Source of the DNA: an uncultured Bacteroidia bacterium
Lineage (GTDB): Bacteria > Bacteroidota > Bacteroidia > Bacteroidales > F082
Reading direction: 5' to 3'
Length of the DNA stretch: 64,000 bases
Assembly: GCA_902799345.1 (NCBI GenBank)
Contig: CADBZW010000019.1
Coordinates: forward strand, 1-64,000
The notes under the pieces are model-generated. The model worked only from the letters and a program-made list of their open reading frames with translations. It had not been told where the DNA came from and made no database searches. Both the position numbers and the translations under genes were made by a program. Shown here piece by piece: positions 19,384 through 57,884 of the stretch (position 1 is its first letter; each line of letters starts with the position of its first letter).

Positions 19384-19881
19384 ATGGACGTGTTCCGCTA
19401 TCAGACACCTGATGGTTTCGATGACCTTATGATGAGCACCGACGGCAAGTCGTTGACGGGCCTTTGGTTTGCTGGATCGCGTGACGAGAACAAACATCTA
19501 TTGGGCGTTGTAGAGACGTGCCATGGCACGTCTCTACCGCCCGTAATCCATGACACCTATCAATGGCTGGACGTCTATTTCGCAGGCCGTCAACCTGATT
19601 TCACACCGGCCTACCGCATGGAAGACCTGACGCCATTCCGCAAGGCGGTGTTGGATATCGTGAGAGAGATACCTTTCGGGAAAACCATGACCTATGGAGA
19701 AATCGCAAAACGGTTGAAAATCAATTCGGCGCAGGCTGTAGGTGGCGCAGTGGGCTGGAACCCCATCTGTCTCATCGTACCTTGCCATCGCGTGATGGGT
19801 GCCAACGGCAACCTCACGGGTTACGGTGGGGGCATTCACAACAAAATCGCCTTGCTGAAACTGGAAGGAAACCTTGTGTAA
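19384..19881 (+). CDS. ogt: methylated-DNA--protein-cysteine methyltransferase with palindrome insertion
   Basis: This 165-residue protein repairs O6-alkylguanine by moving the alkyl group to its own Cys134 in the motif IVPCHRV. The helix-turn-helix (TYGEIAKRLKINSAQAVGGAV) and the N..GYGGG loop that follows the active site are intact. The N-terminal domain contains ten residues, VETCHGTSLP (43-52), coded by a perfect 28-bp palindrome at 19510-19537 that keeps the frame. The insert falls at a loop just before the conserved TYQWLDVYFAG segment, so the enzyme may still fold. Start at 19384 is chosen because it follows the GNAT stop by 2 bases. Confidence 0.92.
   Translation: MDVFRYQTPDGFDDLMMSTDGKSLTGLWFAGSRDENKHLLGVVETCHGTSLPPVIHDTYQWLDVYFAGRQPDFTPAYRMEDLTPFRKAVLDIVREIPFGKTMTYGEIAKRLKINSAQAVGGAVGWNPICLIVPCHRVMGANGNLTGYGGGIHNKIALLKLEGNLV
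19510..19537. repeat. 28-bp perfect palindrome inside ogt
   Basis: GTAGAGACGTGCCA is followed directly by its reverse complement. It reads in frame as VETCHGTSL. Same family as the palindromes at 29387, 32714 and 57857: the outer nine bases GTAGAGACG are constant, the centre varies. Confidence 0.93.
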
Positions 19882-26431: not shown

Positions 26432-29400
26432 ATGAAAAAGTTAGTATCAACCCTCATCCTTTGCCTGGCTTGCTTCGGCGGCTTGAAGGCACAAAACTAT
26501 TGGGAGTTCATCGACCATCCAGCCACCTCCTTGTTGGGTGTGGGACCCGATGGCAGCCTGTTTTTCAATGAAGGCAGCAGCGGCATCAGCCGTATGCAAA
26601 TTCCAAACGGAGCTTGTACAACCGTGCTCGGACCAGAGGCAGGCTACAATACGCATTGTTTCAGTGTGAGTCCTGAAGGAAGAATCTTCGTTTTTCATGA
26701 TGACACACAGACCGTAATGTACTCCGACGACAACGGCGACACTTGGCACCAAACCACTTCGCTTTCACCTAATTGCGCATTTCCCACTAAAGCAGGTTTG
26801 TATGCTGTATCCAATGACATTTTTGTCGTGTGGGCCAAAGAAGGGGAAATTCTCTATACCCTCGACGGAGGTGAGACGTGGAGTGGCTGTGTACTTGATT
26901 TTCTCGAAAACTCTGAATCCGTCAAAGACCTTATAGTCAATGAAAATGGAGATGTGTATGTCAGTGTATCCTATTACATTATGAATATCGTCGGCATTTA
27001 TCATTCCACGTTGTCCGACATGCAAAACTGGGAACTCGTTGCCTTTGAAGGTGTTGACATAGAAGATATGGCCTTCGACCCCGAAGGCAATGTGGTGGCT
27101 TGCGGCTATAATGGCGATGGGAGCAGTGTTGGCTTCCAGCACATTCCTGGTTTTTACCTGTTTGCTGGCTCGAGTTTAGCCATTAGCGATGGCGGAGTGG
27201 TTTACACGCCTAATTTTGCAGGTCATTCGGCTGTGCTTTCCTATTCCCTCGACCATGGCGAGACGTTTGTCAGCGCAGGCGAGGACATCCCCCTTGTTGA
27301 CATTGCTCCTGGCGATGGAAGCGGTTATCTTTTCAAAGGGTATGACAATTACCTGTATTTTGTCTCTGGAACTGAGTATTGGAAAAGCATCCCTAATGCC
27401 GACGAGATTCCCACATTCAACCCTTTGGTGGGCGTGAAGTTTTATGACGAAACCAGCCGTTTGTATTACATCATCACCAGCGGCAACACCGTGGAAGTGA
27501 CCTATGACCAATGGCATTTCAACACTTACGTGGGCGACTATGTCGTGCCCGAAACGGTGACCTACGAGGGCGTTACCTATACCGTCACGGCCATTGGTGA
27601 GTTGGCCTTTGGCGGCTGCGAAGGCGAGCTGAACTCTGTGATTGTGCCTAATACTGTAACCACCATTGAAAGATCGGCGTTTGAGTCGAGCGCGAAACTG
27701 CGTACCGTTGTCCTGCCCAATTCCGTGGACACCATCGCTCCGCGAACCTTTGCTAACTGCCCCAAACTGTCTTCGGTACGGCTTCCCGACGGCATCACCT
27801 ATATCCCGAATTTCATGTTCGAGCGCTGCGAGAGCCTCACTTCGTTCACGATACCGCCCACGGTGACGCACATCGGCGAAAGTGCTTTTAATAATTCGGG
27901 CATCGTCATCAACAGCATTCCCGAAAATGTGACCTCCATCGGAAACAACGCCTTCTATTACTGCGAAGGCATCACCTCGATGGTAATACCCAACACGGTG
28001 ACATCATTGGGATGGGGCGTGTTTTGCTTTTGCAGGGAATTGCAATCCATCCAGCTGCCCGACAACCTTGAGGCGATTCCCGCCACGTTCTTGAAGAATT
28101 GTTTCGCCTTAAGTTCCATCACCATTCCTGAGTCGGTGACTTCGATAGGGGAGGAGGCGTTTTCGGGGTGTACGCATCTGACTTCGGTGGTGATTCCCGA
28201 AGCCGTCACTTCAATGGGCAATGGCGTTTTCCAGAATTGCTATAACTTGGCCTCCATCGACATGCCCGAAACCTTGGATTATCTTGGTGAAAAGGCGTTC
28301 CGTAAGTGCGAACGATTGACGAGCATCACCCTTCCCCGAAATTTGACCAAAGTATGCAATGAGGTGTTTGAAGGATGCTCTGCCTTGCATCAAATCGAAA
28401 TTCCCGAATCGGTGACCTCGATTGGAAACAGGGCTTTTGTAGATTGTAATTTGGAAGAAGTTGTAATTCCTAACCAAGTGGATTCCATCGGGTTGAATGC
28501 GTTTGATGGCTGTCAAGGTCTGTCGCATGTGGTGTTAGGCACATCGGTCTCTTATCTTGGTGAGTACGCATTGAATACAGTGGAAAGTGTGGGCGATTCT
28601 CTCATCGTAGAATGCCTCGGCACTACGCCGCCACGATGCGGCTACACCACTTTCCCCGATGCTGCGCTACAAGGCAAGATGATTGTCCCATGCGGCTATG
28701 AGGATATCTATCGCGAGGCTTTGGGCGAGTATTGGGCGAGCGGCAACTTTGAGGAAGACTGCGACTTTGCCGGTTTGGAATGGTACTACGAAATCTTGAA
28801 CGAAAACGGTAGTATCACTTACCAGCATCTGGAATATACTGCTGACACGACCATCAACCATAAGGAAGTGCAAATTATCATCCGCACGAACACCTTATAT
28901 GATAAGGGCGAGCACAGCGAGGTGACGCGAGAATATGTCTATGGTGAAGACGGCATAATCTATTGGTGGAACAAGGATTTGCAGGACTTTACGGTGCTAT
29001 ACGACTACAACGCCGAAGCCGGCGACGAATGGGAAATCAAGGTGGGTACACAACGTATCACCATGCATGTGGATGCCGTGGAGCAATACGAATATGAGAA
29101 CCAACAATTCAGGCTGTTGCAGGTGCGCGATGCAGACGATCTCTTCAGCGGCACCATCGTGTGTGGCGTTGGCCACTTGACCAGTTTCTTCCCCGAAAAA
29201 CTGATGAACCGTGGCAAGAACTACCGCGTGGAAGGTATGCGCTGCTACTGGCGCGAAGGCGAATTGTTCTTCAAATACGGCGAAGAAGATTGCGATGCCG
29301 TTTACAAGGTTTATCACAACGGCCTCGATGATCATGAGGATGATGTGTTTGCGGTTTATCCCAACCCGACCAATGGCGTTCTCGTTGTAGAGACGGTGTG

Positions 29401-29569
29401 CACACCGTCTCTACCAGCAGCAATCTACCGTATCACCAACCTGATTGGCCAAACCCTAATGTCAGGCCAAATCACCTCCGAAACCCAACAAATTGATGTT
29501 TCCAATTTGCAAAAGGGAATGTATTTCATTACCTTTGCAGGCGAAACACGAAAATTTGTGGTGCGTTAA
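26432..29569 (+). CDS. secreted BNR-propeller and leucine-rich-repeat protein with type IX sorting domain
   Basis: This 1045-residue surface protein has a signal peptide (MKKLVSTLILCLACFGGLKA). The region 25-340 contains Asp-box motifs of a beta-propeller (SDDNGDTW, TLDGGETW, SLDHGETF). Residues about 375-760 are BspA-type leucine-rich repeats (SIGEEAFSGCTHLTSVVIPE). A module at about 780-970 (WYYEILNENGSITYQHLEY) is shared with the next gene. The C-terminal sorting domain (VYPNPTNG to the terminal KFVVR) marks secretion by the type IX system. The domain contains residues VETVCTPSLP coded by the 28-bp palindrome at 29387-29414. BspA-type repeats often mediate adhesion. Confidence 0.88.
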   Translation: MKKLVSTLILCLACFGGLKAQNYWEFIDHPATSLLGVGPDGSLFFNEGSSGISRMQIPNGACTTVLGPEAGYNTHCFSVSPEGRIFVFHDDTQTVMYSDDNGDTWHQTTSLSPNCAFPTKAGLYAVSNDIFVVWAKEGEILYTLDGGETWSGCVLDFLENSESVKDLIVNENGDVYVSVSYYIMNIVGIYHSTLSDMQNWELVAFEGVDIEDMAFDPEGNVVACGYNGDGSSVGFQHIPGFYLFAGSSLAISDGGVVYTPNFAGHSAVLSYSLDHGETFVSAGEDIPLVDIAPGDGSGYLFKGYDNYLYFVSGTEYWKSIPNADEIPTFNPLVGVKFYDETSRLYYIITSGNTVEVTYDQWHFNTYVGDYVVPETVTYEGVTYTVTAIGELAFGGCEGELNSVIVPNTVTTIERSAFESSAKLRTVVLPNSVDTIAPRTFANCPKLSSVRLPDGITYIPNFMFERCESLTSFTIPPTVTHIGESAFNNSGIVINSIPENVTSIGNNAFYYCEGITSMVIPNTVTSLGWGVFCFCRELQSIQLPDNLEAIPATFLKNCFALSSITIPESVTSIGEEAFSGCTHLTSVVIPEAVTSMGNGVFQNCYNLASIDMPETLDYLGEKAFRKCERLTSITLPRNLTKVCNEVFEGCSALHQIEIPESVTSIGNRAFVDCNLEEVVIPNQVDSIGLNAFDGCQGLSHVVLGTSVSYLGEYALNTVESVGDSLIVECLGTTPPRCGYTTFPDAALQGKMIVPCGYEDIYREALGEYWASGNFEEDCDFAGLEWYYEILNENGSITYQHLEYTADTTINHKEVQIIIRTNTLYDKGEHSEVTREYVYGEDGIIYWWNKDLQDFTVLYDYNAEAGDEWEIKVGTQRITMHVDAVEQYEYENQQFRLLQVRDADDLFSGTIVCGVGHLTSFFPEKLMNRGKNYRVEGMRCYWREGELFFKYGEEDCDAVYKVYHNGLDDHEDDVFAVYPNPTNGVLVVETVCTPSLPAAIYRITNLIGQTLMSGQITSETQQIDVSNLQKGMYFITFAGETRKFVVR
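29387..29414. repeat. 28-bp perfect palindrome inside a sorting-domain coding region
   Basis: GTAGAGACGGTGTG is followed by its reverse complement. It is read in frame as VETVCTPSL, the same phase as the copy in ogt. Confidence 0.93.
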
Positions 29570-29578
29570 TCGCGGTCC

Positions 29579-29650
29579 TGTAGGGCTGTCGTATTACGGC
29601 AGCCGCGCATGGTAAACCCAAGGCGGCTGCCACGGTGTGACAGCCCTACA
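29579..29650. repeat. 72-bp hairpin repeat, first copy
   Basis: The ends TGTAGGGCTGTC and GACAGCCCTACA pair, as do the inner CAGCCGC and GCGGCTG. The identical element follows the next gene at 32906-32977, and flanking bases back into the coding end are also the same, so gene and tail were duplicated together. Confidence 0.85.
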
Positions 29651-29695: not shown

Positions 29696-32600
29696 ATGAA
29701 AAAACTAGTTTTAACCTTAGCAATCCTGCTCGCCTTTGCGTTCAATGGCATGACGCAGCAAAGCAGTTTCGCTCCTCAAGGCGCGGAGTGGTATTTCAAT
29801 GTCGCTTCCTTTATGGGCAGCCCAACCACTTATTTCCACATGGAGGTATTGGACGATACGATTATCCAAGGCCACACCTGTAGCGTCATCTCGCCGCAGT
29901 ATGGGGGTGGCAATGGCGACAAACAGTTTGTCTATGAAGACAACGGCGTGGTGTATTGGTATAACCAGACTATTCAAAATTTTACGACACTATATGACTT
30001 CAATGCTGAGGCAGGTGAATCGTGGTATTGCGACATCGATTCCTGCTCTTTTGAGTGTCAGGTGCAGTCTGTTGAAGAGGTTGCTTTGGAAGGCCGTACT
30101 TATCGTGTTCAAACCGTTATACCCTTAATTGGTGACAACAACTATAGTGCTGAGGTGTTTTTCTTTGGAGGGGGACGCATCATCGAAGGCATTGGAGCAG
30201 TAGGTTTGTTCCCTAATTCTTGGGCATGCTCTAATGAATTTGTGTGTGGGGCGTATCTCGATTATTTGCGCTGTTATCTCGTTGACGGCGAGATGGTGTT
30301 GCACCTTGGTGCATACGATTGTGATGAACAAGGCTATTGCTGGGACGGCACTGTGGCTGAATCCTACGGAGGTGGCGACGGTACCGAAGAGAACCCATAT
30401 CAGATTTATACTTCAAATCAGTTGGCTTTACTCGCCCAGCAAACCAACAATGGCACAGGTGGCGATGCCTATTACAAGATTATGGAGAATATCAATCTGG
30501 CCAATTGTGATGGCGGTATTCAGCAATGGATTTCCATAGGGACACCCGAACATCCTTTCACGGGACATTTTGATGGCTGGGGCGATGCCAAAACCATTTT
30601 GAATTTGCATCAAACCATCACTGACGGTGATGCACAGCCTGTGGGTGGTCTCTTCGGCTGCACCAACGGTGCCGAAATCAACAATGTCCATTTAGCGCAG
30701 TGTTATGTCAGCGGAAATGGAAAATATGTGGGCACCCTTGTGGGTTATGCTGGCTTGACCAACATTTCTAATTGCAGTATTTATGACGGACGCGCCTCAA
30801 CTGACAAACAATATGGTATTGCGGGTGGTTTGGTAGGCTTGGCGGGCTACACTTACGGAGAACAGGGAGCGAGCGATCAGACATACTCCATCACGGCGTG
30901 TCAAGTGCAAGAGGCTGTGAAGGTGGAAGCCCATATTGCTGGTGGCGTTGTGGGCCAGATTAACGATTTGCGTGCGAAAGCACAATATGTGATGGATGGT
31001 TGCGTGATGAGTGGCTTGGCCGATAGTTTTTGTGTTCATGGAGGTTCTTCAACTGGTGGTATAGTTGGGATAATGTGGTGGGCGACGATATTGCGCTGCA
31101 CTAACAATCAAAAAGTTGTTGGAGGTCTTTCACCTGGTGGTGGAGGTGTCGGCGGTATTGTAGGAATGGTTGGCTATGGCAGTGTTGAGGAATGTATCAA
31201 CAATGAAACAGGACAGATTAGTAGTGTCGAAGGCTTTAAAGGTGTTCATGTTGGTGGAATTATCGGTATTATTCATAGTAGCGTCGAGAGTAGGGCAAGT
31301 GATATAAGAGGTTGTCAGAACTTTGCCGATTTGTCTGGCACTGGTTGTTGTGGCGGCATTGTTGGTGGTTATCATTTGAATCATTCAGGTACGCCTTCTT
31401 TTGTACAACAATGTAATAATTATTCAAGGGTGACATGTCATCGTCCTGCAAACGCTATTGGCGTTGAAAGTGTTGGCGGCATTGTTGGCCATGTTGGGCA
31501 GGGCTTTGGAAATCTTTGTATCGTTGAATGTAGCAATTTCGGTGATATGGTGATGGAGAGTGAGGAGCAAGGAGATGCTGGCGGCATTTTAGGTTCAAGA
31601 GAAGCGGGCAATATATACATTGTGAATGTGTTCAACAGAGGAACAGTGAGTGCTCCCAAATATGCAGGCGGCATTATTGGCGGTGCTGAGAATATAGGTA
31701 ACTGCGTCATCCAGAATGTGTATAATGCAGGCGAGGTGATTACCAGAGAAGAAATCAAAGGAGCCATCGCTTATAATCAGCAAGAAACAGACCATTTCAG
31801 CGATTGCTATTGGTTGGGCCATCTTGAAAACCATGACGGCGTAAGCCAAGGTGAACCGTTGCAACATTCCTGTGCTTTCTGGCCTACCACTTATTTTGGT
31901 GAATGGAGTCTCGACAGCCTGCAATTCGGACACGATTTGGTAGAGGCTTTGAATACAGGCGCTGAAGCCTTGGTGGAGCAATATCCTACGGTACTTGCCA
32001 TGGTTCACCGTTGGGATTATGACAATGACCATAATAACGACGGCTTCCCCGTCTTTACTGGAGTTGAAGTTGGTTATCCCTTTGGTGAAACGGAATGGTA
32101 CTACGAAATCGAGAACGAGAACGGCAGCATCACTTATCAGCATCTGGAATATGCCGCCGACACGACCATCAACCATAAGGAAGTGGTTGTCATTATTCGA
32201 ACCAACACGCTTTATGACAAGGGTGAACATCAGGAAGTCACTCGTGAATACCTTTATGAAGAAGACGGTGTGGTGTATTGGTGGAACAAGGATTTGCAGG
32301 AATTCACGACGCTCTACAATTTTGGCGCCGAGGAAGGCGACGAATGGGAAATCAAGGTGGGGATGGAAAGCATTCTTATGCATGTGGGTACTGTGGAGTA
32401 TCAAGAATATGAAGGGAGTCTGTATAAAATGCTGATTGTGAGCGATGACCAAGATCTCTTCAGCGGTACCATCGTGTGTGGCATTGGCCACCTGACCAGT
32501 TTCTTCCCCGAAAAACTGATGACACGCGGCAAGGACTACCGTGTGGAAGGCATGCGCTGCTTCTGGCGCAACGGCGAATTGTTCTTCAAATATGGAGAAA

Positions 32601-32896
32601 GGGATTGCGACGAGGTGTATCAGGAAATCCATAACGGCATCGAGGAAGACGGCCCTTCGACAGGCTCAGGGACCTTAACCATTTATCCCAACCCGACCAA
32701 CGGCGTCCTCTTTGTAGAGACGGTGTGCACACCGTCTCTACCAGCAGCAATCTACCGCATCACCAACCTGATGGGCCAAACCCTAATGACGGGCCAAACC
32801 ACCTCCGAAACCGAACAAATCAACGTGTCCGGCCTGCCCGATGGGATGTATTTCATCACCGTGGGCGACACGACGCGGAAATTTGTGGTGCGTTAA
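29696..32896 (+). CDS. secreted GLUG-repeat protein with type IX sorting domain
   Basis: This 1066-residue protein has a signal peptide (MKKLVLTLAILLAFAFNGMTQ). A module at about 30-200 (ending near LRCYLVDGEMVLHLG) is repeated in diverged form at about 800-985 (WYYEIENENGSITYQHLEY), the latter close to the module in the preceding gene. Between them, about 225-760, run many glycine-rich GLUG-type units (VGGLFGCTNGAEINNVHL, GGIVGMVGYGSVEECINN) expected to form a beta-solenoid. The C-terminal sorting domain ends RKFVVR. Two dispersed repeats are translated inside it: GPSTGSGT from 32651-32674 and VETVCTPSLP from 32714-32741. An adhesin-like surface role is inferred. Confidence 0.87.
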   Translation: MKKLVLTLAILLAFAFNGMTQQSSFAPQGAEWYFNVASFMGSPTTYFHMEVLDDTIIQGHTCSVISPQYGGGNGDKQFVYEDNGVVYWYNQTIQNFTTLYDFNAEAGESWYCDIDSCSFECQVQSVEEVALEGRTYRVQTVIPLIGDNNYSAEVFFFGGGRIIEGIGAVGLFPNSWACSNEFVCGAYLDYLRCYLVDGEMVLHLGAYDCDEQGYCWDGTVAESYGGGDGTEENPYQIYTSNQLALLAQQTNNGTGGDAYYKIMENINLANCDGGIQQWISIGTPEHPFTGHFDGWGDAKTILNLHQTITDGDAQPVGGLFGCTNGAEINNVHLAQCYVSGNGKYVGTLVGYAGLTNISNCSIYDGRASTDKQYGIAGGLVGLAGYTYGEQGASDQTYSITACQVQEAVKVEAHIAGGVVGQINDLRAKAQYVMDGCVMSGLADSFCVHGGSSTGGIVGIMWWATILRCTNNQKVVGGLSPGGGGVGGIVGMVGYGSVEECINNETGQISSVEGFKGVHVGGIIGIIHSSVESRASDIRGCQNFADLSGTGCCGGIVGGYHLNHSGTPSFVQQCNNYSRVTCHRPANAIGVESVGGIVGHVGQGFGNLCIVECSNFGDMVMESEEQGDAGGILGSREAGNIYIVNVFNRGTVSAPKYAGGIIGGAENIGNCVIQNVYNAGEVITREEIKGAIAYNQQETDHFSDCYWLGHLENHDGVSQGEPLQHSCAFWPTTYFGEWSLDSLQFGHDLVEALNTGAEALVEQYPTVLAMVHRWDYDNDHNNDGFPVFTGVEVGYPFGETEWYYEIENENGSITYQHLEYAADTTINHKEVVVIIRTNTLYDKGEHQEVTREYLYEEDGVVYWWNKDLQEFTTLYNFGAEEGDEWEIKVGMESILMHVGTVEYQEYEGSLYKMLIVSDDQDLFSGTIVCGIGHLTSFFPEKLMTRGKDYRVEGMRCFWRNGELFFKYGERDCDEVYQEIHNGIEEDGPSTGSGTLTIYPNPTNGVLFVETVCTPSLPAAIYRITNLMGQTLMTGQTTSETEQINVSGLPDGMYFITVGDTTRKFVVR
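32651..32674. repeat. REP-like sequence translated in frame
   Basis: GGCCCTTCGACAGGCTCAGG and the next four bases match the widespread repeat wording 'CCTGAGCCTGTCGAAGG' in reverse. It adds GPSTGSGT before the sorting domain; the paralogue at 26432-29569 lacks it. Relatives lie at 39404 and 63535. Confidence 0.75.
32714..32741. repeat. 28-bp perfect palindrome inside a sorting-domain coding region
   Basis: Identical to the copy at 29387-29414 and at the matching place of the paralogue, again read as VETVCTPSL. Confidence 0.93.
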
Positions 32897-32905
32897 TCGC
32901 GGTCC

Positions 32906-32977
32906 TGTAGGGCTGTCGTATTACGGCAGCCGCGCATGGTAAACCCAAGGCGGCTGCCACGGTGTGACAGCCCTACA
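32906..32977. repeat. 72-bp hairpin repeat, second copy
   Basis: Same sequence and same position relative to the stop codon as 29579-29650. It may act as a terminator-like hairpin, though no T-run follows. Confidence 0.85.
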
Positions 32978-34364: not shown

Positions 34365-34377
34365 ATGATGCTTTTTT

Positions 34378-34432
34378 CTACAGAAACGTGCCAAATCTAT
34401 CAAATTTTTGAAGATTTGGCACGTTTCTGTAG
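34378..34432. repeat. 55-bp palindrome flanking the ATPase/nuclease gene, intact copy
   Basis: The left arm starts CTACAGAAACGTGCC and the right arm ends GGCACGTTTCTGTAG; the arms are perfect over 21 pairs around a 13-base centre that also pairs (TCAAA/TTTGA). It lies 6 bases beyond the gene's stop codon. On the gene strand it is followed by an A-run, so it is not a typical terminator. Confidence 0.9.
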
Positions 34433-34438
34433 GATATT

Positions 34439-35890: not shown

Positions 35891-35900
35891 ATCATTTTTT

Positions 35901-35955
35901 CTACAGAAACGTGCCAAATCTATCAATTTTTTGAAGATTTGGCAGGTTTACGTCG
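35901..35955. repeat. 55-bp palindrome flanking the ATPase/nuclease gene, decayed copy
   Basis: The first 44 bases match the copy at 34378-34432 except for one position in the centre; the last arm has several changes (GGTTTACGTCGG in place of CGTTTCTGTAG). Both copies are in the same orientation, as direct repeats around the gene. Confidence 0.85.
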
Positions 35956-35970
35956 GTTTTTCCAAAAACA

Positions 35971-42053: not shown

Positions 42054-42082
42054 TGTAGGGCTGTCACACTGTGGCAGCCGCA
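42054..42082. repeat. half copy of the 72-bp hairpin repeat
   Basis: TGTAGGGCTGTCACACTGTG and the next nine bases match the reverse complement of the right arm of the elements at 29579 and 32906 with two differences. Only one arm is present. Confidence 0.7.
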
Positions 42083-42097
42083 CATTCGAAATAGCCA

Positions 42098-57856: not shown

Positions 57857-57884
57857 GTAGAGACGTAGCGCGCTACGTCTCTAC
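57857..57884. repeat. 28-bp perfect palindrome between convergent genes
   Basis: GTAGAGACGTAGCG is followed by its reverse complement. It fills most of the 41-base gap between rlmN and the GH97 gene and may help to end transcription from both sides. Same family as the coding copies at 19510, 29387 and 32714. Confidence 0.92.

Follow-up and report, generated by a model that had tools for sequence, protein, structure and literature searches.

Double-foot REPs, in which a long hairpin opens with a 5′ GT[AG]G foot and closes with C[TC]AC, have been described for subclass 2.4 of the TnpA_REP (RAYT) proteins in Bacteroidetes and Cyanobacteria, where they also lie in frame inside the tnpA_REP gene itself, between its HuH and Y motifs (PMC6006769). 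A published table equates this subclass with Bertels group 4. In the sections of that paper considered here, other host genes come in only through its reference to Di Nocera, and neither a lineage-specific core nor core turnover at a fixed site appears. The GTAG REPs of Di Nocera et al. 2013 (PMC3733652) share with the elements described below the GTAG tag, the link to RAYTs and the intragenic copies, many of them in repair genes. They differ in that both ends of the present elements match symmetrically, and the single ‘Bacteroid’ mention in the consulted main text of that paper concerns CGTC repeats.

In Rickettsia, the elements RPE-4, RPE-6 and RPE-7 (PMC3767692) are likewise in-frame palindromes at conserved gene sites, in exposed regions, and the same gene carries different RPE groups in different species, for which their authors held a common origin likelier while keeping hotspots possible. 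These ATGAC-rich insertions measure 68-192 bp and no transposase is named for them in the text considered. By length and motif, the 28-bp GTAGAGACG...CGTCTCTAC elements do not belong with them. Nor do they belong with the CGTC REPs, which have an unpaired CGTC at one end, their own ends being GTAG and CTAC, complementary to each other. REPINs are paired REPs, whereas most of the copies mapped here are single symmetric palindromes. The REPINs of Pseudomonas (PMC3116915) are nevertheless comparable as dispersed REP populations tied to a RAYT. The mobility of RAYTs is, according to PMC8266576, not yet understood.

The palindrome in ogt and its copies

The window, that is the whole stretch of 64,000 nucleotides analysed, carries ogt (O6-methylguanine-DNA methyltransferase, 165 aa; PF01035, DNA_binding_1, E=4.6e-30) as a plus-strand reading frame at 19384..19881, with its ATG at 19384 and its stop at 19879-19881. 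Inside this gene, at 19510..19537, lies a 28-bp perfect palindrome, GTAGAGACGTGCCATGGCACGTCTCTAC, built as a double-foot REP with the core TGCCATGGCA (palindromes are given here without strand). It is read in phase 0 without any break of the frame, as the sequence-only reading of this DNA had claimed, through the codons GTA GAG ACG TGC CAT GGC ACG TCT CTA C(CG), giving VETCHGTSLP; 28 being no multiple of 3, these ten codons include two flanking bases. The three further window copies announced by that reading are present as well. Two of them, at 29387..29414 and 32714..32741, have the core GTGTGCACAC and are read in phase 0 (the former as VETVCTPSLP) at equivalent positions of the sorting domain in two adjoining T9SS cargo genes, one at 26432..29569 (plus strand; BspA-type LRR and C-terminal sorting domain; PF13306, PF18962) and one at 29696..32896 (plus strand; PF18962). 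As these adjoining genes are partly duplicated and the two copies match in position, they are not mutually independent. The last copy, at 57857..57884 with core TAGCGCGCTA, is taken as intergenic, no ORF longer than 73 aa covering it. The window thus has 4 matches to the pattern GTAGAGACG-N(0-30)-CGTCTCTAC, whereas 100 shuffles gave 0.

Two other kinds of repeat can be mentioned for the same window. A 67-nt repeat with long inverted arms (CTACAGAAACGTGCCAAATC...) is found at 34372-34438 and 35895-35961, 1.5 kb apart, and a GTAG-containing, hairpin-like repeat of 32 nt, TGTAGGGCTGTCGTATTACGGCAGCCGCGCAT, at 29579-29610, 32906-32937 and 42054-42085.

The palindrome had been proposed to be a dispersed repeat, and a whole-genome pattern search bears this out, with 55 copies in the 3.13 Mb of the own genome (G000) and 0 for the reversed control pattern. 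Fifty of the 55 were mapped, and 49 distinct ones with a core of 8-12 nt were analysed: 46 are 28 bp long, 32 are perfect 28-bp palindromes and 11 more have one mismatched pair. Length is more variable in the loci of named genomes, where 90 of 124 copies have 28 bp and 26 have 29 bp. A copy was counted as lying inside an ORF when this ORF had at least 200 aa, with 25 aa on either side of the copy, a long ORF alone being no proof of a gene. By this rule 13 of the 49 own copies are inside (9 in phase 0, 4 in phase 1), as are 16 of the 124 distinct copies of the named-genome loci (12 in phase 0, 4 in phase 1). Phase 2 starts with a TAG stop, a point correctly made before, and therefore cannot be inside an ORF; the accompanying claim of a single coding phase fails, since both open phases are in use.

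The ORFs with both an own copy and a Pfam domain are ogt, an AlkZ-like glycosylase, a U32 peptidase, five sorting-domain proteins (one of them, L214, slightly below the Pfam cut-off), PhoH (copy near the C-terminus), Vsr (copy at the domain end) and a Macro-domain ORF (copy well ahead of the domain). One more copy, at the end of RuvX and ahead of peptide deformylase, may be intergenic. In-frame copies of other organisms lie in RecG (Candidatus Moranbacteria), a family 2 glycosidase, a Mur ligase and an FHA protein. Repair genes recur among the hosts here, as they do in the part of the work of Di Nocera et al. considered (PMC3733652). As an observation apart, G000 has 120 matches to PF18962, the T9SS C-terminal sorting domain, in one genome.

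Beyond this genome, the palindrome is present in 73 of 100 sampled genomes (own included) and in 58 of 59 same-genus relatives, G039 being without it. A scan of named genomes, in which the arms were fixed by the query and the cores differ, returned at least 117 stretches; among the matches listed, 59 are from Bacteroidota, 37 from Cyanobacteriota and 21 from others or unplaced, and the first two are the phyla named for subclass 2.4. The feet of 249 distinct elements fitting GTxG...CxAC, many of them fetched by a GTAG...CTAC pattern, are GTAG/CTAC in 238, GTTG/CAAC in 3, GTGG/CCAC in 1 and asymmetric in 7. Where both feet are changed symmetrically (L295, L298 and L253 with GTTG/CAAC, L306 with GTGG/CCAC), it is as if the whole element or hairpin had been corrected as a unit.

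We consider the palindrome very probably to be a double-foot REP (GTAG...CTAC) of a RAYT/TnpA_REP subclass 2.4 system. The window element begins with the 5′ GT[AG]G foot and ends 3′ with the reverse complement of this foot, the own copies form long hairpin stems and are numerous, RAYT genes with NHxH, WQ and, in part, YIxNNP are present in the genome, and REPs lie inside tnpA_REP in three own genes (C5, with an exact copy in frame between HuH and Y and further copies upstream, and C13 and C37, with decayed copies; not C2) and in many relatives. The genomes without RAYT and the partial Y motif lower our confidence slightly. This kind of repeat is already known from the literature. The sequence-only reading knew of no description for Bacteroidales, yet PMC6006769, as far as considered, has double-foot REPs in frame in tnpA_REP for a subclass abundant in Bacteroidetes, and PMC3733652 has GTAG REPs within many genes, repair genes included; that reading is, overall, partly supported. 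The present survey extends in-frame REPs of the double-foot kind to non-transposase genes of Bacteroidales: ogt, the AlkZ-like glycosylase, Vsr, the U32 peptidase and the T9SS sorting domains.

RAYT genes and the 10-bp core

By analogy with the described systems, processing of the REPs by a cognate protein is putative here. Pfam Y1_Tnp proteins were considered as the cognate enzyme and rejected: their three matches in G000 are of the YIxNQ/TQ...HH kind, IS200-like in NCBIfam, no GTAGAGACG half site was found in the loci of these matches, and several palindrome-rich relatives are without any Y1_Tnp match. Two IS200-like transposase genes of G000, L016 (C20) and L017 (C10), are flanked by other short-repeat arrays (CCCCGTAGGGG; GGCGACGTAAGTC).

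The loci of the named-genome scan include RAYT genes with the palindrome inside. Because 6 of 7 tested subclass 2.4 RAYTs score below the Pfam cut-off, a search based on an alignment (A1) of seven RAYTs was used; with NCBIfam REP_Tyr_transpos the scores were 36-58 bits, the cut-off of 80 not being reached. This search gave 4 strong and 2 weak matches in G000, and matches in 59 of the 100 genomes (own included). The C5 gene, whose identification as a RAYT rests on it, reads NHIH/WQ/YIQNNV and contains an exact in-frame palindrome between NHIH and YIQNN, with decayed copies of the same core upstream. A decayed copy lies inside the C13 gene (NHVH/WQ/YIENNV) and another inside the C37 gene (NHIH/WQ/YVANNV), whose match ends in TGA, while no palindrome was found inside the C2 gene (NHIH/WQ/YIQHNP) or within scan reach of it. 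The own strong RAYTs therefore have the published HuH and WQ motifs, and YIxNNP in part, three genes having V instead of P. A loose-pattern palindrome is found in 20 of the 30 best RAYT loci; these 30 are the best-scoring ones from the 100 genomes and the other rows of the tree below came from loci at hand, so that they form no random sample.

The core is distributed among these genes in a characteristic way. Of 39 RAYT loci, 19 have at least two palindromes in the gene or within 600 nt, and 15 of these 19 carry one core label throughout. Among the mixed ones, L262 has a single odd copy in its flank, while L251, L252 and L266 combine two related cores, L252 and L266 being one gene. On a RAYT tree computed with the insert columns left out, the core labels require 10 changes, for a minimum of 9 and a shuffled mean of 17.0, and 0 of 200 shuffles were as low; 27 of the 38 rows are labelled, some of them near copies, which inflates the clustering. 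GGCC (9 rows) and AATT (4 rows) form one clade each, CATG requires 2 changes and TGCA 3. Labels were assigned from an author-written list of consensus cores and the majority per locus, those of L251, L252, L266 and L267 being set by hand and L252 being dropped as the same gene as L266. These sequence comparisons show that the 10-bp core tracks the RAYT lineage, though the 9-bp arms are common to all. In the literature searched, which consisted of open-access papers, we found neither this coupling nor core turnover at fixed coding sites.

Copy number also goes with the presence of a RAYT. Among the 59 same-genus genomes, the median is 23.5 copies in the 40 with a RAYT match and 11 in the 19 without (Mann-Whitney p = 0.004), and copies and RAYT matches are correlated (Spearman rho 0.43), both values being uncorrected for kinship and completeness. 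Of the 19 genomes in which the A1 search found no RAYT match, 11 hold at least 10 copies, and some of these genomes are nearly complete; G040, 98% complete, has 14 copies and no match. Since copies are abundant in such genomes, either they can persist without a present RAYT or it was missed. In G000 itself (assembly 90.8% complete), no RAYT was identified for the cores GTGCAC, CATG and GCGC, all of which are present there.

Core turnover at fixed coding sites

For ogt, it had been predicted that close relatives would lack the ten residues. The segment is on the contrary kept in all the best 120 of 6782 protein matches, mostly as V-E-T....S-L-P and in some with one of these positions changed, the candidates having been picked by shared words, a choice that tilts towards sequences with the segment. 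The palindrome or a decayed form is at the site in 11 of the 30 best ogt loci, that of the window among them and all from this genus; L059 is unclear and the other 18 have none by the scans used. More distant Ogt proteins have, by eye, a shorter loop. The ogt insertion is old in this clade and common to the relatives. The segment is probably a loop ahead of WLDVYFAG. The AlphaFold model, weak as a whole (mean pLDDT 60), places it between strand 24-29 and helix 53-66, with residues 41-50 as the least confident stretch (pLDDT 35), and it is not confidently structured in this prediction.

The alkZ site is spanned by 21 loci (one per genome), of which 14 have the element or a decayed form, 2 a CATTGCGAGG-type repeat and 5 neither. 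In all 14 the palindrome begins, by eye, at the same codon. Four core types occur among them, with 7 changes on the gene tree for 7.3 in shuffles, 106 of 200 of which were as low. This tree (14 loci, L289 included) has 3 of its 11 inner branches starred and several weak forks; the starred branches force three changes each for GCGC and GTGCAC. The 11 ogt loci have 3 core types and 4 changes; 18 of 200 shuffles needed no more. In the U32 peptidase, 8 loci with exact arms have 3 core types and 2 changes, the minimum, and there the core follows the gene tree. For alkZ and U32 the items were selected with patterns that fix most arm letters, which biases the identity of the arms and leaves that of the cores unbiased.

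Junctions, 20 bases each, were compared in 10 different-core pairs from alkZ, ogt and U32, or in 11 if both own pairs of U32 are counted. They are identical (20/20) in two alkZ pairs, G028/G002 and G021/G002, agree at 18-19 of 20 in six pairs (three alkZ, three ogt), and are poorer in three wider pairs, namely own/G003 at alkZ (13/20) and those of U32 (15/20 and 11/20). One same-core pair, own/G002 at U32, has 14/20. Despite its 20/20 junction bases, G028/G002 has 6/10 core mismatches, and in the alkZ pair G012/G007 the core differs at 6/10 positions between flanks identical at 589/626. That point mutation would yield at least six core differences has a binomial p = 5e-5 at the flank divergence of G028/G016 (67/800) and p = 7e-6 at that of G012/G007 (37/626).

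Two other proteins add to this picture. At one place of the T9SS sorting domains, own paralogues have VCTP or RLIA cores, and other genomes QNFA, RHGT or RRAT. The distance from YPNP to G[QR], two spurious matches being left out, is 31-33 aa with the palindrome (10 sequences) and 25-31, mostly 27, without it. In the tail of phoH the palindrome is present in 3 of 30 loci; own PhoH and that of G002 have about 96-97% protein identity, different cores and a 12-base flank difference. The phoH and intergenic sites are described from their sequences and left out of the junction counts, since the own/G002 comparison sets opposite strands side by side and the own/G032 and intergenic ones are ungapped. 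No clean empty site was found at ogt, alkZ or U32, and neither a target site nor a clean 28-bp footprint could be established: five alkZ relatives at 70-73% identity have no element, but their loop differs, and what comes closest to an empty site, the phoH tail of G003, has a differing flank. At the level of aligned genes, the comparisons show that ogt, alkZ, the U32 peptidase and the T9SS sorting domains hold old shared sites whose cores differ between species, and that closely related species can have different cores at one fixed coding site with both junctions intact.

Possible routes to different cores at one site

To account for this turnover we tentatively favour a reading in which RAYT lineages compete, all with the same arms and feet but each with a 10-bp core of its own, and one lineage overwrites the REPs of another at their fixed positions in coding genes. 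The element itself is a non-autonomous hairpin composed of the GTAG foot, the common arms GTAGAGACG/CGTCTCTAC and the core, very probably dispersed by the subclass 2.4 TnpA_REP/RAYT proteins that its genome encodes. Its copy in the probable Ogt loop ahead of WLDVYFAG very probably landed there long ago, with the frame kept and the insertion tolerated. We suppose that a RAYT recognises the foot and arms common to all members and installs its own core. Any existing REP would then be a ready target, and the exchange would be frame-neutral because the length of the element is mostly constant.

Different cores could also result from separate insertions in separate lineages, if permissive surface loops accept many repeats. 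We regard such a hotspot as possible, if rather doubtful. The U32 loop and the phoH tail do hold quite other repeats in other species, and two alkZ loci (L296, L297) hold the CATTGCGAGG-type repeat, one of them decayed, where the palindrome sits elsewhere. Independent insertion would likewise fit an intergenic site with a different core, whose junctions are off by a few bases, and the only partial likeness of the junctions in the three wider pairs. It is harder to reconcile with the agreement of the junctions in the close different-core pairs at alkZ and ogt, and with the same start codon for the palindrome across the 14 alkZ loci.

Gene conversion between dispersed copies, whereby host recombination or hairpin template switching copies the core without a RAYT, is expected to give an outcome that looks the same, and the evolution of REPs by this means was proposed as early as 1988 (Higgins et al.). 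The symmetric new feet (3 GTTG/CAAC, 1 GTGG/CCAC) rather suggest that the element was replaced as a whole or repaired inside the hairpin, but another 7 elements are changed on one side only. The shared arms are only 9 bp, far under the usual recombination lengths, and we hold this route to be unlikely. Very unlikely, in our opinion, is that the site is kept by selection, through a function in Ogt of the peptide (VETxxxxSLP) or of an mRNA hairpin. V43, E44, T45, S50, L51 and P52 do stand in columns at least 90% conserved among 37 Ogt proteins, in line with the retention of the segment in the best 120 of 6782 protein matches; against this, the choice of these matches by shared words favoured the kept segment, the four core residues vary, unrelated proteins contain the same peptide and the segment is the least confident stretch of the weak Ogt model. 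Moreover, most of the ten other ogt loci have the palindrome in decayed form, which speaks against its being selected as a palindrome.

If overwriting by RAYT lineages is the correct reading, a coding site once colonised would be recycled over the long term, with about four host codons rewritten each time, and a core change at an old coding site would name the RAYT lineage that acted. Cores marking RAYT lineages could in this way give a readable history of how REPs move.

Several loci have other repeats at these loops or tails. A CATTGCGAGG...GCAATCC-type repeat, in some cases decayed or partial, is present instead of the GTAG palindrome in alkZ (L296, L297), U32 (L326, L332, L333) and phoH (L383, L388), and other palindromic or tandem repeats are present in L322, L328, L330 and L335.
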